From assembly GCA_001797815.1 (NCBI GenBank), contig MGQK01000073.1, forward strand, positions 74,288 through 87,122: a stretch of 12,835 nucleotides of DNA, given 5' to 3'. The stretch is from Deltaproteobacteria bacterium RBG_13_61_14 (GTDB taxonomy: Bacteria > RBG-13-61-14). Positions 1 to 8,752 of this stretch are shown here, in pieces. A program made the translations under genes and the position numbers. The notes beneath the pieces are model-generated. The model had not been told where the DNA came from and ran no database searches. It saw only the letters and a list, made by a program, of their open reading frames with translations. Every line of letters begins with the position of its first letter. The first letter of the stretch is position 1.

Positions 1-234
1 CGGTTCAGTTCCACCCTGCTCTATTCCAAGCATCAGGACCACGGCCGGCTGCGCGAGTTGGGGGAAGCGGTGGCTAATCAATACCAGGTGCCGTTCCTTT
101 ACCGCGACTTCCGCGAAGGCTGGAAGCACGGCATCGAGGCGTCCAAGGAGATGGGTCTCTACCGGCAACCCTATTGCGGCTGCATTTTCAGCGAGCGGGA
201 CCGGTATCAAAAGTCCGGGAGGAAATCGGGATGA
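1..234 (+). CDS. queH: Epoxyqueuosine reductase QueH, C-terminal part (5' end outside window)
   Basis: QueH reduces epoxyqueuosine to queuosine in tRNA, the last step of queuosine synthesis, and is the iron-sulfur alternative to QueG. Only the last 77 codons are present, in frame from base 1 to a TGA at 232-234. The visible part carries the family's C-terminal hallmarks: a segment reading YSKHQDHGRLRELGEA, then YRDFREGWKHG, then a Cys-containing block YRQPYCGCIFSERDRY. In this family the Cys residues of that block help bind the metal cofactor (family knowledge, not visible here). The N-terminal CC motif lies outside the window. The stop overlaps the ATG of the following kinase gene by ATGA, so the two are translationally linked and very probably co-transcribed. 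The short Lys/Arg-rich tail after the RDRY motif is normal. Identification is firm; the start cannot be seen. Confidence 0.93.
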   Translation, partial: RFSSTLLYSKHQDHGRLRELGEAVANQYQVPFLYRDFREGWKHGIEASKEMGLYRQPYCGCIFSERDRYQKSGRKSG

Positions 235-2687
235 GGCGGGCCTTCGCCCTGGGCGCGGCGCTGTGGCTTTGCGGCCTCCCGGCCGCGGCCCAGCCTCTCA
301 CCCGCCTTTCTCCCACCCTCGGCATCCCGGTAGTCGGAATCCTGGCCGCGTTCCTGCTCCTGGTCTTCTTCCTCTTCATCTTCCGCAAGGAGCAGAATCT
401 CGAGGGCTACGATCCGCTGCGCGACCTGGAGACGCACTCGCCCAAGTGGATCCAGAAAAAGGCCCAGGAACTCGCCCGCAGCGAAGCCTTCCGCACCGCG
501 GGCGACCTGTATCTCTACCTGAAAAAATACGAAGAAGCCGCATCCTGCTTTCTCAAGGGCAAGCAGTTGGTCAAGGCCGGAGAGACCTTGCTGGCCGCGG
601 GCAAGATCCGGGAGAGCGCCCGGGTTTACGAAGCCCTGGAGGATTATCCCCGTGCCGCCAAGCTCTACCTGGACGCCGGAGATCCGGTGCAGGCCGCGGA
701 AATCTTGATCAAAGCCGGCGAGATCGCGACCGCGGCCCGGGTGCTGGAGCAGGCCGGCCGATTTTCCCGGGCGGCCGAGCTCTTCCAGGAGCAAACCCTG
801 TTCCGCCGCGCCGCGGAGTTGTTCGAGCGCGCCGAGCAATGGGACCGCGCCGGCGACGCGCTTCTGCACTGCTACCAGCGGGAGAAGGCGCGCCTGCCCG
901 AAGAGTTGGCCGAGGCCGACGCCTGCAGCCTGGCCCGGCTCTGCCGGCGCTGCGGGGAGCTCTATGAAAAAGGCCGTCGCCCGGCCGAGGCGGTGGCGGC
1001 CTTTGAGCGCGGCGGCTTTTTGCAGGAGGCGGCCCGGGTCTACGAAGGGATGGAGAATTTCGGATCCGCTTCCGATGCCTACCTGCGCGCGGGCCTGCCC
1101 TTTGAAGCCGCCCGCTGCCTGGAACGGATGGGGCAGTCTCGGGCCGCGGCTTCGCTCCGCGCCAGGACTTACCTGGAAAAGGGCCAGAAACGCGAGGCCC
1201 TGATTCACCTCGAGCAGGCGGAGGAGTTCGAGACCGCGGCCGCGATTTACCAGGAGCTGGGCGAGACCGTGCGCGCCGGCGAGGCCTGGGAACGCGCCGG
1301 CCAATCCGCCCGCGCGGCCCAAGCCTTCCTGATGGTGGACAACTGGGAGCGCGCCGCCGAGAACCTGGACCTGGCCGGCAACTACCAGGAGGCGGCCCGC
1401 TATTTCGAGAAAGCCGGAAACTTCTCGCGCCAGGCCGAGATGTACGAGAAGGCGGAAGCGTTCTACCTGGCCGGGGAAAATTATTTCCGTCGGGGTCTGT
1501 TCGATCGGGCGATCCGGGTGCTCCAGCAAGTGGAGCGCCCCGACCCGGATTTTTCCCGGTCCTGTGCGCTGCTGGGCGAAATCTTTCGGGAAAAGGGCAT
1601 GCTCAAACTGGCACGCGACAGCTTCCGGCTGTCCGTGGAAAACCAGGAGATTTCCCGGGGCAACCTGAACACTTACTACCAGATCGCCGTGTGTTCGGAG
1701 CGCCTGGGCGACAACGCCGAGGCCATGGCCCTCTATGACAAGATCCTGACCGTGGACTATCATTTCCAGGACGTGGCCAGCCGGATCAACGCGCTCAAAC
1801 AGACCCGCACCGAGGTGGAGAGCCGGCCCTCGGAAGCACACTTCCAAGACACCCAGGCCATGGGCGAGAGCACCGCCCCGGTCTTGCTCGAGCGCACCGC
1901 GGAGACCCGGTACGAGATTATCGAAGAGATCGGCCGCGGGGGCATGGGCATTGTCTATCGCGCCCGCGACACCATCCTCGACCGCATCGTCGCCTACAAG
2001 GTGCTGCCGGCCAACCTCAAGGACCACCCCCAGGCGCTCAAGAACTTTTTCCGCGAGGCCAAGAGCGCGGCCAAATTGAACCACTCCAACATCGTCACCG
2101 TTTACGACGCCGGCGAAGAGGCCGGGACCTACTACATCGCCATGGAATACATCGAGGGCCAGACCGTCAAGGAGATCATCAACCGCGAGGGCCGGCTGCC
2201 GATCAAGGCGGTGCTGGTCATCGCCGGCCAGATCTGCCGGGCCCTGGAATACGCCCACCAGCGCAAGATCGTCCACCGCGACATCAAGTCCTCCAACATC
2301 ATGTGGACCCCGGACAAGCAAGTCAAGATCATGGACTTCGGCCTGGCCAAGGTGATCGAGGAAGTCAAAGGCTACCAGACCCTGGCCTCGGGCACGCCCT
2401 ATTACATGTCGCCCGAACAGGTGCTCGGCCAAAACGTGGAATTCAGCACCGACCTCTACTCCCTGGGCATCACCCTCTTCGAGATGGCCGCCGGCGCCCT
2501 GCCCTTTCGCCACGGCGAAGCCGCTTACCATCACGTCCATACCCCCCCACCCGAAGTCAAAAGCATCCTCCCCGAGGTTCCCGACAGCCTCAACTCGATC
2601 ATCCTCCGCCTGATGCAGAAAAACCCGAATGACCGCTACCCCTCCGCCCGCGAGGTCTTCGAGGCGTTCAAACAAGTGAGGGTGTGA
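231..2687 (+). CDS. Membrane-anchored Ser/Thr protein kinase with 13-residue helical repeats and TPRs
   Basis: 818 residues, predicted to phosphorylate Ser/Thr on cytoplasmic proteins from the inner membrane. I start it at ATG 231: GGGAGG lies 8 nt upstream, it overlaps the queH stop, and it opens a signal peptide (MRRAFALGAALWLCG, likely cut after AAA at 18-20). A TTG at 174 in the same frame lies inside queH and is unlikely. After a periplasmic stub of about 11 residues comes one membrane helix (about 32-51) followed by RKEQ, which places the rest in the cytoplasm. Residues 86-215, 249-313 and 331-434 consist of units of exactly 13 residues (for example DYPRAAKLYLDAG, DPVQAAEILIKAG). Two ordinary TPRs follow at about 440-520. 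The kinase domain, about 561-818, looks complete: glycine loop GRGGMG (569-573 region), Lys590 in AYK, helix-C Glu609, HRD 682-684, DFG 702-704, SPEQ and STDLYSLG. The C-terminal position of the kinase and lack of an external sensor differ from PknB-type proteins. Substrates are unknown. Confidence 0.92.
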   Translation: MRRAFALGAALWLCGLPAAAQPLTRLSPTLGIPVVGILAAFLLLVFFLFIFRKEQNLEGYDPLRDLETHSPKWIQKKAQELARSEAFRTAGDLYLYLKKYEEAASCFLKGKQLVKAGETLLAAGKIRESARVYEALEDYPRAAKLYLDAGDPVQAAEILIKAGEIATAARVLEQAGRFSRAAELFQEQTLFRRAAELFERAEQWDRAGDALLHCYQREKARLPEELAEADACSLARLCRRCGELYEKGRRPAEAVAAFERGGFLQEAARVYEGMENFGSASDAYLRAGLPFEAARCLERMGQSRAAASLRARTYLEKGQKREALIHLEQAEEFETAAAIYQELGETVRAGEAWERAGQSARAAQAFLMVDNWERAAENLDLAGNYQEAARYFEKAGNFSRQAEMYEKAEAFYLAGENYFRRGLFDRAIRVLQQVERPDPDFSRSCALLGEIFREKGMLKLARDSFRLSVENQEISRGNLNTYYQIAVCSERLGDNAEAMALYDKILTVDYHFQDVASRINALKQTRTEVESRPSEAHFQDTQAMGESTAPVLLERTAETRYEIIEEIGRGGMGIVYRARDTILDRIVAYKVLPANLKDHPQALKNFFREAKSAAKLNHSNIVTVYDAGEEAGTYYIAMEYIEGQTVKEIINREGRLPIKAVLVIAGQICRALEYAHQRKIVHRDIKSSNIMWTPDKQVKIMDFGLAKVIEEVKGYQTLASGTPYYMSPEQVLGQNVEFSTDLYSLGITLFEMAAGALPFRHGEAAYHHVHTPPPEVKSILPEVPDSLNSIILRLMQKNPNDRYPSAREVFEAFKQVRV

Positions 2688-4151: not shown

Positions 4152-4706
4152 ATGAACTTCGATCAAGTAGGTCCCCAAAACACCGAGGCGACCCTGAAGA
4201 TCGCGGTGGCCGCGGCCCGGGAGCGGGGTATTGCTCACCTGGTGGTCGCTTCCACCAACGGCGACACCGCCCGGGCCGCGCTCTCGGCCATCGCCGGCAC
4301 TTCGCTCAAGCTGGTGGTGGTCACCCACAACGTGGGCTTCGGCCAGGAGGGCAAGGACGAGTTCGATCTCGCGGTGCGCGCGCAAGTGGAGCAAGCCGGC
4401 CACCGGGTGCTGACCGCGACCATGGCCACCCGCAACCTGAACAAGGCCATTTCCAACAGGTGGGGCGGCTATTCCCAGACCGAGCTGGTGAACGCCGCCC
4501 TGCGCATGTTCAGCCAGGGGATCAAGGTCTGCGCCGAGATCGCGGCCATGGCCTGCGACGCCGGGCTAATTCCTTTCGCCGACGTGGTGGCCGTGGCCGG
4601 CACCGGCAAGGGCGCCGACACCGCGGTCGTGATCCGGGCCAATTCTTCCAACCGCTTCTTTGACCTCAAGTTCAAGGAAATCCTGTGCAAGCCGAGGAAC
4701 TTCTAA
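4152..4706 (+). CDS. Stand-alone pyruvate kinase C-terminal-like domain protein
   Basis: 184 residues matching only the alpha/beta C-terminal domain of pyruvate kinase; there is no catalytic TIM barrel. In full-length pyruvate kinase this domain carries the allosteric effector site, so the free-standing form may bind a phosphorylated metabolite or nucleotide (inference). Visible features: THEATLKIA-type opening (here QNTEATLKIAVAAA), HLVVASTNGDTARAALSA (about 29-46), LVVVTHNVGFGQEG, and a C-terminal block AGTGKGADTAVVIRANS, followed by FFDLKFKEI. It is probably cytoplasmic and cotranscribed with the upstream exporter; a functional link between the two is unproven. The stop codon TAA overlaps the first bases of the A+T-rich inverted repeat downstream. 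Family assignment is good; its biochemical role is not established from sequence. Confidence 0.82.
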   Translation: MNFDQVGPQNTEATLKIAVAAARERGIAHLVVASTNGDTARAALSAIAGTSLKLVVVTHNVGFGQEGKDEFDLAVRAQVEQAGHRVLTATMATRNLNKAISNRWGGYSQTELVNAALRMFSQGIKVCAEIAAMACDAGLIPFADVVAVAGTGKGADTAVVIRANSSNRFFDLKFKEILCKPRNF

Positions 4707-6499: not shown

Positions 6500-6528
6500 T
6501 TTCAACCCCGCCTTTTCAATGTTACAAT
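6500..6528 (+). promoter_or_regulatory. Extended -10 promoter of the DUF4911-like gene
   Basis: TACAAT (6523-6528, 5 of 6) is preceded by TG at 6520-6521, giving TGTTACAAT, an extended -10. The -35 is poor (TTTCAA at 6500-6505, 17-nt spacer). Transcription should begin around 6535-6537, at or just before GTG 6537, which would make the mRNA leaderless and exclude ATG 6519 as the start. Confidence 0.55.
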
Positions 6529-6536
6529 GTTCTGGC

Positions 6537-6800
6537 GTGAAGCAGCCGGCAACCCAGGACCTGGTCCGCTTCTATCGCCTGCCGCACGAGCGGATCGTGG
6601 ATTTGATCTTCCTGCTCGAAGGCTACGAGGGCATGGCCGTGCCCCGCACCCTGGACAAGGAACAGGGCATCATCGAGCTTTTGATCGCGCCCGACTTTTT
6701 GCCGGAGCTCGAGGCCCTGCTCCGCGACCTGCGGGAGGAGCTCCAGATCAGCGAAATCCCCAAGCCCGACCACACCAAGAGCAAAAGCATCCTCGACTGA
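6537..6800 (+). CDS. Small DUF4911-like protein
   Basis: 87 residues from GTG 6537 (93 from ATG 6519). The sequence LIFLLEGYEGMAVPRTLD, then IIELLIAPDFLPELEALL, matches my recollection of DUF4911, a family of about 80-residue proteins of unknown function frequent in Desulfobacterota and relatives. No membrane segment, metal motif or catalytic signature is visible; the alternation of strands and helices suggests a small alpha/beta fold resembling ACT-like domains (weak inference). I prefer GTG 6537 because ATG 6519 overlaps the predicted -10 box and neither start has a Shine-Dalgarno sequence. The stop TGA shares its last A with the ATG of the glycosyltransferase (TGATG), so the two are translationally coupled. 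Family name is moderately sure; function unknown. Confidence 0.72.
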   Translation: MKQPATQDLVRFYRLPHERIVDLIFLLEGYEGMAVPRTLDKEQGIIELLIAPDFLPELEALLRDLREELQISEIPKPDHTKSKSILD

Positions 6801-8752
6801 TGAACCCTTCGCCTGACCACGGAGTAGAACAAGCCCACGGCTCCCAGCCCGGCCGAGGACATGCGATTATCCTGGCCGGTATTCTCCTTTTCGCCCTCAT
6901 CCTGAAACTCCTGCACCTGGGAATCGTCCACAACTATCCCCTGCTCGAACCGCGCGGCGACCTGGACCCGAAATATTATTTCGACTTCGCGCTCCGCGTG
7001 ATGCACGGCGACCTCCTCGCCGGCCCCGACGTCTTCTTCATCTCCCCTTTCTATATCTATTTCCTGGCCGCGGTCTTTGGGCTGATCGGATCGCGCGTGG
7101 TCATGGCCTACGTGGTCCAGACCCTGCTCGGCACCCTGGCCATTGCCCTGATCTACCTCGCCGGCCGGCGCGCCTTCGGGCCCCGCGCCGGGCTCTTCGC
7201 CGCGGCCCTGATGGCGCTGGACGGAATCCTCACCTTTTACGAGGTCACCCTGCTGCCCGAGGCCGTGACTCCGGTTCTCACCGCGCTTTTACTATGGCTT
7301 CTGGTCAGGGCCCAGACGCGCCCCACCGTTCCTGCTTGGCTCCTGGCCGGCATCTCGCTGGGTCTTTTGGGCCTGGACCGGCCCAATGCCCTGCTCTTCG
7401 CGCCGATCGCCGCGCTTTTCGCGCTCTTTGCGCTCAGGCCCCTCCGTCTGGCCTCCCTGCGCCCGGTTGCGGCCCTGGCCCTGGGAGCAGCCCTCTTCAT
7501 CCTGCCGGTGACGCTGCGCAATTACGTAATCGGCCAAGACCTCGTGCTCATCAGTTCCCACGGCGGGATGAACTTCTACATCGGCAACGGCCCCGGCGCG
7601 ATCGGCACCTACCAGTCGCCGCCCGGCGTCGCCGCCAGCATCACCGGCCAGATGAGGGACACCCGTCGCATCGCGGAAGCGGCCGCGGGCCGGGCGCTGA
7701 AGCCCTCCGAGGTCTCCGACTATTACTACCGCCTGGCCTGGAACTTTCTCCGGGCCCACCCCCTCTGGTGGATCAACCTAAACCTGCTGAAAATCATTTA
7801 CCTGGTGAACGGCGCCGAGGTGGGGCTCAACCTGAGTTACGCCTTTTTCCAGGAGGAAGTCTCCTGGCCGCTCAAAGTTCTTTTCGCCGGCTTCGGCGTG
7901 ATCTTTCCTCTCGGCATCCTCGGCCTGGGCCTGGCCCGCAAGCGCGCGGCCCCAATCGCGATCCTCGCCGCGTTCCTGGGCGTCTATGCCGTCTCCGTCG
8001 TCATCTTCTTCGTGGCCGACCGCTACCGCATCCCGCTGCACCTGCCGCTGCTGCTCTTTGCCGGCTTCGCGCTTGACCGCTGGCTGACCTTGGTCCAACA
8101 CCGCGCTTGGGTCACGGCCGCGGTACTCCTTGCTGCGGGTCTGGCCTTAGGCTGGCTCGCGAACCTGGACCAAGGTCTGGAACAAGGCAAAGACCTGATG
8201 AGGACCGATCTCATTCTCTACGATATTGAGAATTACCATTTTGACCAGGCGCGCGCCGAGATCGCGAAGCTTTCGTCCCTGGGCCAGGAGTCCGCCGCCA
8301 TCCAGCTCAAGCTGGGCCAGGCCTTCATGATCCGCAACCAATTCACCAACGCCCTCGAACACCTGGAGACCGCGGCCCGCCTCGACCCCAAGCTGGCCGA
8401 GACGCACCAGATGGCCGCCCTGATCTGGATCCAGAAAATGGACTATGCCCAGGCGCTCCCGCACTTGCAAGCATGGTTCTGGCTCAAGCCCGAGGATATC
8501 CAGGCCGGCGTCAGCCTGGCCACGGTTTACTCCAAGCTGGGCCAGCCCCAGCAAGCCATCGAGGTATTGCGCGGCTTGATCCACACCCTTCCGGACGAAG
8601 CATCGCTGCATTATTTCCTCGGGGTGTTGAGCAACACCCATGGCGACCGCGGCGAGGCCATCCGGGAGTTGGAGCGAGCCGTGGCCCTCAGCCCGGATAC
8701 GCCGGAATACCGCGCCACGCTGGAAAAGCTCCGGGCTTCTTCCCCGAAATGA
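6800..8752 (+). CDS. GT-C membrane glycosyltransferase (family 39-like) with C-terminal TPR domain
   Basis: 650 residues. Such enzymes transfer a sugar from a polyprenyl-phosphate donor to protein or lipid at the outer face of the inner membrane. Residues 1-460 contain about ten hydrophobic helices, the first at about 24-43. The first outer loop has the acidic motif GDLDPKYYFD (Asp54 and Asp56 are the likely catalytic or metal-binding residues by family analogy), followed by SPFYIYFLAAVFG and TLLPEAVTPVL. A long loop begins RNYVIGQDLVLISSHGG and continues NFYIGNGPGAIG. After the last helix (about 435-455), residues about 495-640 form roughly four TPRs (QLKLGQAFMIRNQFTNALEH and following), probably periplasmic. 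The start overlaps the DUF4911 stop by 1 nt and has no Shine-Dalgarno sequence, so translation likely depends on coupling. An open frame upstream to 6527 is only a shadow of the previous gene. Donor and acceptor are unknown. Confidence 0.82.
   Translation: MNPSPDHGVEQAHGSQPGRGHAIILAGILLFALILKLLHLGIVHNYPLLEPRGDLDPKYYFDFALRVMHGDLLAGPDVFFISPFYIYFLAAVFGLIGSRVVMAYVVQTLLGTLAIALIYLAGRRAFGPRAGLFAAALMALDGILTFYEVTLLPEAVTPVLTALLLWLLVRAQTRPTVPAWLLAGISLGLLGLDRPNALLFAPIAALFALFALRPLRLASLRPVAALALGAALFILPVTLRNYVIGQDLVLISSHGGMNFYIGNGPGAIGTYQSPPGVAASITGQMRDTRRIAEAAAGRALKPSEVSDYYYRLAWNFLRAHPLWWINLNLLKIIYLVNGAEVGLNLSYAFFQEEVSWPLKVLFAGFGVIFPLGILGLGLARKRAAPIAILAAFLGVYAVSVVIFFVADRYRIPLHLPLLLFAGFALDRWLTLVQHRAWVTAAVLLAAGLALGWLANLDQGLEQGKDLMRTDLILYDIENYHFDQARAEIAKLSSLGQESAAIQLKLGQAFMIRNQFTNALEHLETAARLDPKLAETHQMAALIWIQKMDYAQALPHLQAWFWLKPEDIQAGVSLATVYSKLGQPQQAIEVLRGLIHTLPDEASLHYFLGVLSNTHGDRGEAIRELERAVALSPDTPEYRATLEKLRASSPK

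Follow-up and report, generated by a model that had tools for sequence, protein, structure and literature searches.

Described kinases and solenoids related to the locus

Kinases that carry TPRs are well known. In PknG, the TPR domain has been proposed to link the membrane protein GlnX to substrate phosphorylation or choice (PMC8546545). Bacterial TPR kinases have the kinase domain first and the TPRs at the C-terminus, the latter mostly periplasmic in Planctomycetota (PMC11032199). In cyanobacterial SpkB and others, the kinase is fused to pentapeptide repeats (PMC2176072). Beyond the kinases, IFT proteins have WD40 propellers at the N-terminus (PMC10191852). Their solenoids, in IFT-A and IFT-B (IFT140, IFT144/WDR19, IFT172 and IFT122), appear to be built from the same type of unit as the protein described here.

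The window, i.e., the whole stretch of DNA analyzed (12,835 nucleotides from Deltaproteobacteria bacterium RBG_13_61_14), encodes a membrane-anchored kinase with a long helical arm. Like PknG, this protein joins a TPR-class scaffold to a kinase; unlike PknG and the other TPR kinases, it has its solenoid N-terminal to the kinase domain and probably in the cytoplasm. SpkB is one fused protein, whereas here the pentapeptide repeats lie on a separate, neighboring gene. IFT proteins have no kinase domain, and the window kinase has no WD40 propellers: no WD40 match was found in it, and only ∼85 residues precede the lattice. For a fixed 13-residue lattice ahead of a kinase, we found no description in the open-access literature searched.

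Organization of the locus and of the kinase

The features of the locus are collected in Table 1. The first of them was assigned to queH from its sequence, from the G002 counterpart upstream of the kinase, which matched the QueH family (PF02677, 207 bits), and from the queH-kinase gene order, which is the same in G001 and G002.

Table 1. Coordinates of the features in the window, with the basis of each assignment.
Feature	Positions	Strand	Basis
queH (epoxyqueuosine reductase), 3′ part	1..234	+	sequence; its stop codon and the kinase start codon share ATGA
Membrane-anchored Ser/Thr kinase with 13-residue helical lattice, 818 aa	231..2687	+	ATG start
Single transmembrane helix, about residues 32-52	324..386	+	hydropathy and charge counts; positive charges lie C-terminal to the helix
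Lattice block 1, ten 13-residue units, residues 86-215	486..875	+	autocorrelation, relatives-only profile, AF2
First conserved break, 21 residues (216-236)	876..938	+	profile; modelled within a longer helical hairpin
Lattice block 2, six units, residues 237-314	939..1172	+	profile; AF2 pLDDT >90 over most of the block
Second conserved break, 4 residues (315-318)	1173..1184	+	profile; unit plan of relatives
Lattice block 3, nine units, residues 319-435	1185..1535	+	profile, AF2
Cap, about two ordinary TPRs, residues 436-530	1536..1820	+	Pfam TPR matches at 443-517; model helices of 14-16 aa
Variable linker, residues 531-558	1821..1904	+	least conserved part of the sequence, with 0.67 bits per column
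Ser/Thr protein kinase domain, residues 561-809	1911..2657	+	PF00069, 192 bits; all catalytic residues present

From N- to C-terminus, the protein consists of membrane helix, lattice arm, TPR cap, linker and kinase domain. The original prediction, which concerned positions 486-1532 (kinase residues 86-434), had the arm between the membrane helix and the kinase domain, and this order is correct. From the charge pattern and the need for ATP, the arm and the kinase are likely to be cytoplasmic, since both come after one N-out/C-in helix.

Judged from its complete catalytic set and the PF00069 match, the protein is a bacterial Hanks-type Ser/Thr kinase. The equivalog of the PASTA kinases (Stk1/PknB, NF033483) matched the kinase part only, with 332.9 bits, which is below its cut-off of 450. 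Residues K590, E609, D684, N689 and D702 were invariant in 30/30 kinase-bearing proteins of alignment A3, and the HRD arginine was absent in one relative, L045. By these residues, the kinase is apparently active.

A 13-residue lattice in the arm

The periodicity of residues 80-440 was analyzed by autocorrelation (BLOSUM62, 1000 shuffles). The z-score was 9.7 at lag 13, 9.4 at lag 26, 7.6 at lag 39 and 6.0 at lag 52; the top value over all shuffles and lags was 4.24. A 34-residue period was absent from this region (lag 34, z −3.5). A 13-position unit profile was then trained on 46 relatives, with the window protein excluded. This profile located 25 units at residues 86-435, in runs of 10, 6 and 9, with the consensus [DEKN]-[YF]-x-[KER]-A-[AG]-E-L-[YFL]-E-[KR]-A-G. 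Over residues 80-555 it gave 28 units, against a mean of 6.6 and a maximum of 11 in shuffled sequences. Hence the proposed 13-residue spacing was confirmed by both approaches, and the proposed count of ∼23 units was near the one found; the lattice is not uninterrupted as claimed, since a break of 21 residues and then one of 4 residues separate the runs. That such a lattice is unusual on a bacterial Ser/Thr kinase also held: 56 other bacterial kinase ORFs reached 2 consecutive units at most, compared with 10 in the window kinase.

No DNA tandem repeat was left under the arm in a DNA-level search, and the units are thus old. Recent tandem duplication was ruled out by this result and by a within-protein unit identity of only 24%. 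An alternation of A and B helices was also considered; no clear alternation was observed, lags 13 and 26 being about equal over the arm.

Length and register of the arm across relatives

The arm profile was searched against 386 sampled genomes (E ≤ 1e-40). Matches were obtained in 28 of them, about 45 proteins altogether, nearly all with a lag-13 z-score of 7 to 12. Among the sampled genomes the lattice family is near-universal in three small phyla, with members in 3/3 genomes of the window's own phylum, 8/9 of the G022 phylum and 10/12 of the G109 phylum. The window kinase has the lag-13 signal, the three-block plan and the TPR cap by which the family is defined. A search of genome contigs for relatives returned almost only generic kinases.

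The 349 residues of the arm align without any indel to those of L043, L044 and L139-L142, at 24-38% identity. Identity between the same units of the window arm and these relatives was 0.25-0.38, versus 0.21-0.24 between different units, and a single ungapped diagonal scored above the 13- and 26-residue shifts. The remoter members show a few indels in the arm, and the unit plan of 10-11, 5-6 and 8-10 units is constant across most members. By sequence, the length and register of the arm are fixed, near-constant over many relatives, which speaks against a sensor of varying length; the original prediction had entertained a long solenoid scaffold or a length-sensitive sensor. As a rule, arrays of repeats are expected to add and drop units. 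In this arm, ∼25 units retain their number, their breaks and their register across large distances, which makes it a suitable case for testing whether solenoids can act as devices of fixed geometry.

Conservation within the arm falls almost wholly on core positions 5, 6, 9 and 13 of the unit. Near the second break, A311 is unusually conserved in the alignment of relatives. The most conserved positions outside the lattice are the cap residues Y483, N478, Y502, D514 and R518.

The lattice also occurs in other contexts. It is found with the cap alone after a membrane helix in L038, L144 and L145. In L050:4015-5520 (+) (G000:C67) and L161:901-2349 (−), a cyclic-nucleotide-binding (cNMP) domain comes after lattice and cap, and there is no kinase. 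In L160:502-3159 (−) and L169:1814-4294 (−), an N-terminal HD domain replaces the membrane helix and is followed by a short lattice and the kinase. No clear membrane helix was found in L046, L141, L142 and L152-L154.

The genome of the window (G000) encodes a second lattice kinase, L006:2800-5271 (+) (G000:C131), with 38% identity. Downstream of L006 and of its counterpart L035 lie an apparent MBL-fold-like gene and a putative coaBC-like gene. The G001 ortholog, L042:2152-4540 (−) (G001:C11), is split over two overlapping frames, owing to a frameshift or an assembly error. A protein of Bacteriovoracaceae UBA2394, L058:580-2628 (+), has cap and kinase in common with the family and lacks the long lattice; its N-terminal part is different, and we take it to resemble an MshEN-type domain.

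Fold class of the arm

Two AlphaFold2 (AF2) models were computed from the single sequence, without an alignment, one covering residues 69-525 and the other residues 82-329. In both models the lattice helices are 10 residues long, joined by 3-residue turns, so that they advance in 13-residue steps, mostly with pLDDT values of 84-97; the helices of block 1 are regular from residue 126 on. The longer model is poor around residues 190-249, and the shorter one places a longer helical hairpin at the break. With pTM values of 0.49 and 0.59, the overall and long-range curvature is unreliable. As modelled, the arm has helices at 13-residue steps and not the spacing of ordinary 34-residue TPRs. The suggestion that two units make a 26-residue hairpin is supported by these models and by the lag-26 signal.

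In the models, antiparallel helix pairs stack as a solenoid that superposes on TPR chains, on gamma-SNAP and on IFT-A chains; helical repeats often reach Z-scores of 10-12, and hence the superpositions show class and not descent. The SNAP family (gamma-SNAP, Sec17) provided the best fold match of the model of blocks 1 and 2, gamma-SNAP (Z 12.6). However, its helices are longer (212 residues for 167 model residues), and it has neither kinase nor membrane anchor. With IFT140 the aligned spans were nearly equal (303 model and 317 chain residues) in a loose superposition, with an rmsd of ∼20 Å and Z near 10. An rmsd of this size means that the curvature differs or was mis-modelled, and the IFT proteins match only a few consecutive units; in IFT144, three units of the window arm align ungapped. 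The 34-residue TPRs, both designed and natural (CTPR, OGT, LGN), belong to the same helix-stacking class, and the window unit resembles TPR helix B plus a tight turn, yet alignment of consensus TPRs to the arm needs insertions of ∼8 residues between units. In Pfam, the scores exceeded the cut-offs for TPR_2 (59 versus 27 bits), TPR_8 (49.4 versus 25.7), SNAP (PF14938; 49.1 versus 25) and IFT140/IFT172-TPR (PF24762; 33.6 versus 26.8).

These matches raise the alternative that the arm is an ordinary TPR array that has drifted, in which the helices happen to be short, the 13-residue spacing has no meaning and the partners vary by lineage. The TPR_2 and SNAP scores are in its favor, as are the best VIA-align rows, which were gamma-SNAP (3.3 Å over 160 residues) and consensus TPRs, and the genuine TPR cap. 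We nevertheless consider this reading unlikely: lag 34 carries no signal, length and register are fixed across phyla, and the 56 other kinase ORFs never exceeded 2 consecutive units. The statement that the arm is not a 34-residue TPR thus holds for its spacing and not for its affiliation, since the lattice still belongs to the TPR superfamily and an ordinary TPR cap precedes the kinase. On the profile matches and models, the arm is a solenoid of the TPR clan in which all helices have been trimmed. As to structure alone, we are confident that the protein comprises a fixed-size α-solenoid of ∼25 trimmed TPR-type helices, two TPRs, a linker and a kinase. It would provide a natural bacterial model of very short-helix solenoids, most other known examples of which come from transport proteins of eukaryotes.

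Proposed role of the arm

We infer that the arm is probably a scaffold of fixed geometry that docks a protein partner. The restriction of conservation to the core positions fits a scaffold whose members have no ligand pocket in common. The N-terminal membrane helix would anchor the protein, and the cytoplasmic solenoid would dock the partner and place it relative to the membrane and the kinase. The TPR cap might then pass the occupancy of the solenoid to the kinase via the flexible linker, by analogy with PknG.

The same constancy of unit number, the absence of indels and the core-only conservation would also suit a stalk or ruler of fixed length, which sets the distance and orientation of the kinase relative to the membrane or reaches across to a further structure, and many members do have an N-terminal membrane helix. 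This alternative appears slightly less probable than a drifted array: the six members listed above lack a clear membrane helix, and in others an HD domain or a cNMP domain at the C-terminus takes its place. An arm that binds a small molecule or metabolite and thereby switches the kinase would agree with the sensor-like order of parts, and the HD and cNMP domains of relatives hint at nucleotide signaling, but we regard it as improbable because the conservation analysis of relatives revealed no conserved non-core arm residues that could form a shared pocket.

A pentapeptide-repeat gene beside the kinase

A gene for a pentapeptide-repeat protein (PF00805, up to 308 bits) adjoins the kinase gene or lies one gene off in 15 genomes, namely G000, G001, G002, G151, G289 and all ten kinase-bearing genomes of the G109 phylum. 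It directly adjoins the kinase in 12 of them (G151, G289 and the ten of the G109 phylum), and queH intervenes in G000-G002. In the window's genome it is G000:C73:72219-73964 (+) (L009:2220-3965), just outside the window and upstream of queH, and encodes a 582-aa protein; ruvC lies further upstream. At control kinase loci no such gene was found (0/79), and G245, G109 and G372 showed no further strong pentapeptide locus.

The ten G109-phylum genomes are related and represent about one event, with a mostly convergent orientation, and the additional loci of this phylum were collected only after the gene pairing had been noticed. Since genomes within a phylum are related, the pairing amounts to about four independent observations (the window's own order, G151, G289 and the G109 phylum) and not fifteen, where the kinship of G151 and G289, with one another or with the phylum of the window, is placed at the level of "same domain". 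No such gene was observed next to the kinase at the G022-phylum, G180, G386, G078 and G220 loci, nor next to the paralogs L006, L034 and L035. The pentapeptide protein is therefore not the partner of the whole family.

Where the gene occurs, its product is the best candidate for a partner or substrate. That it is the docking partner in these lineages is a proposal to which we give slightly less than even chances; it would supply a concrete candidate partner for kinases with unknown inputs. The explanation as a whole, in which a membrane-anchored kinase carries a docking solenoid of fixed size and the pentapeptide protein is the probable partner in some lineages, we favor by a small margin over its being wrong. 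A bolder version is quite doubtful, in which an invariant solenoid-kinase of the IFT/coat kind and a rigid pentapeptide β-helix would form a two-part signaling scaffold, so ancient that it is a core gene in a number of small phyla, and perhaps sharing descent with the eukaryotic transport solenoids.

Other genes in the window

Two further genes of the window were recorded. Positions 4152-4703 encode a stand-alone protein with a pyruvate kinase C-terminal (PK_C) domain and without the catalytic part. Positions 6527-8749 encode a PMT_2 glycosyltransferase fused to ordinary 34-residue TPRs, whose true start is probably inside the ORF.
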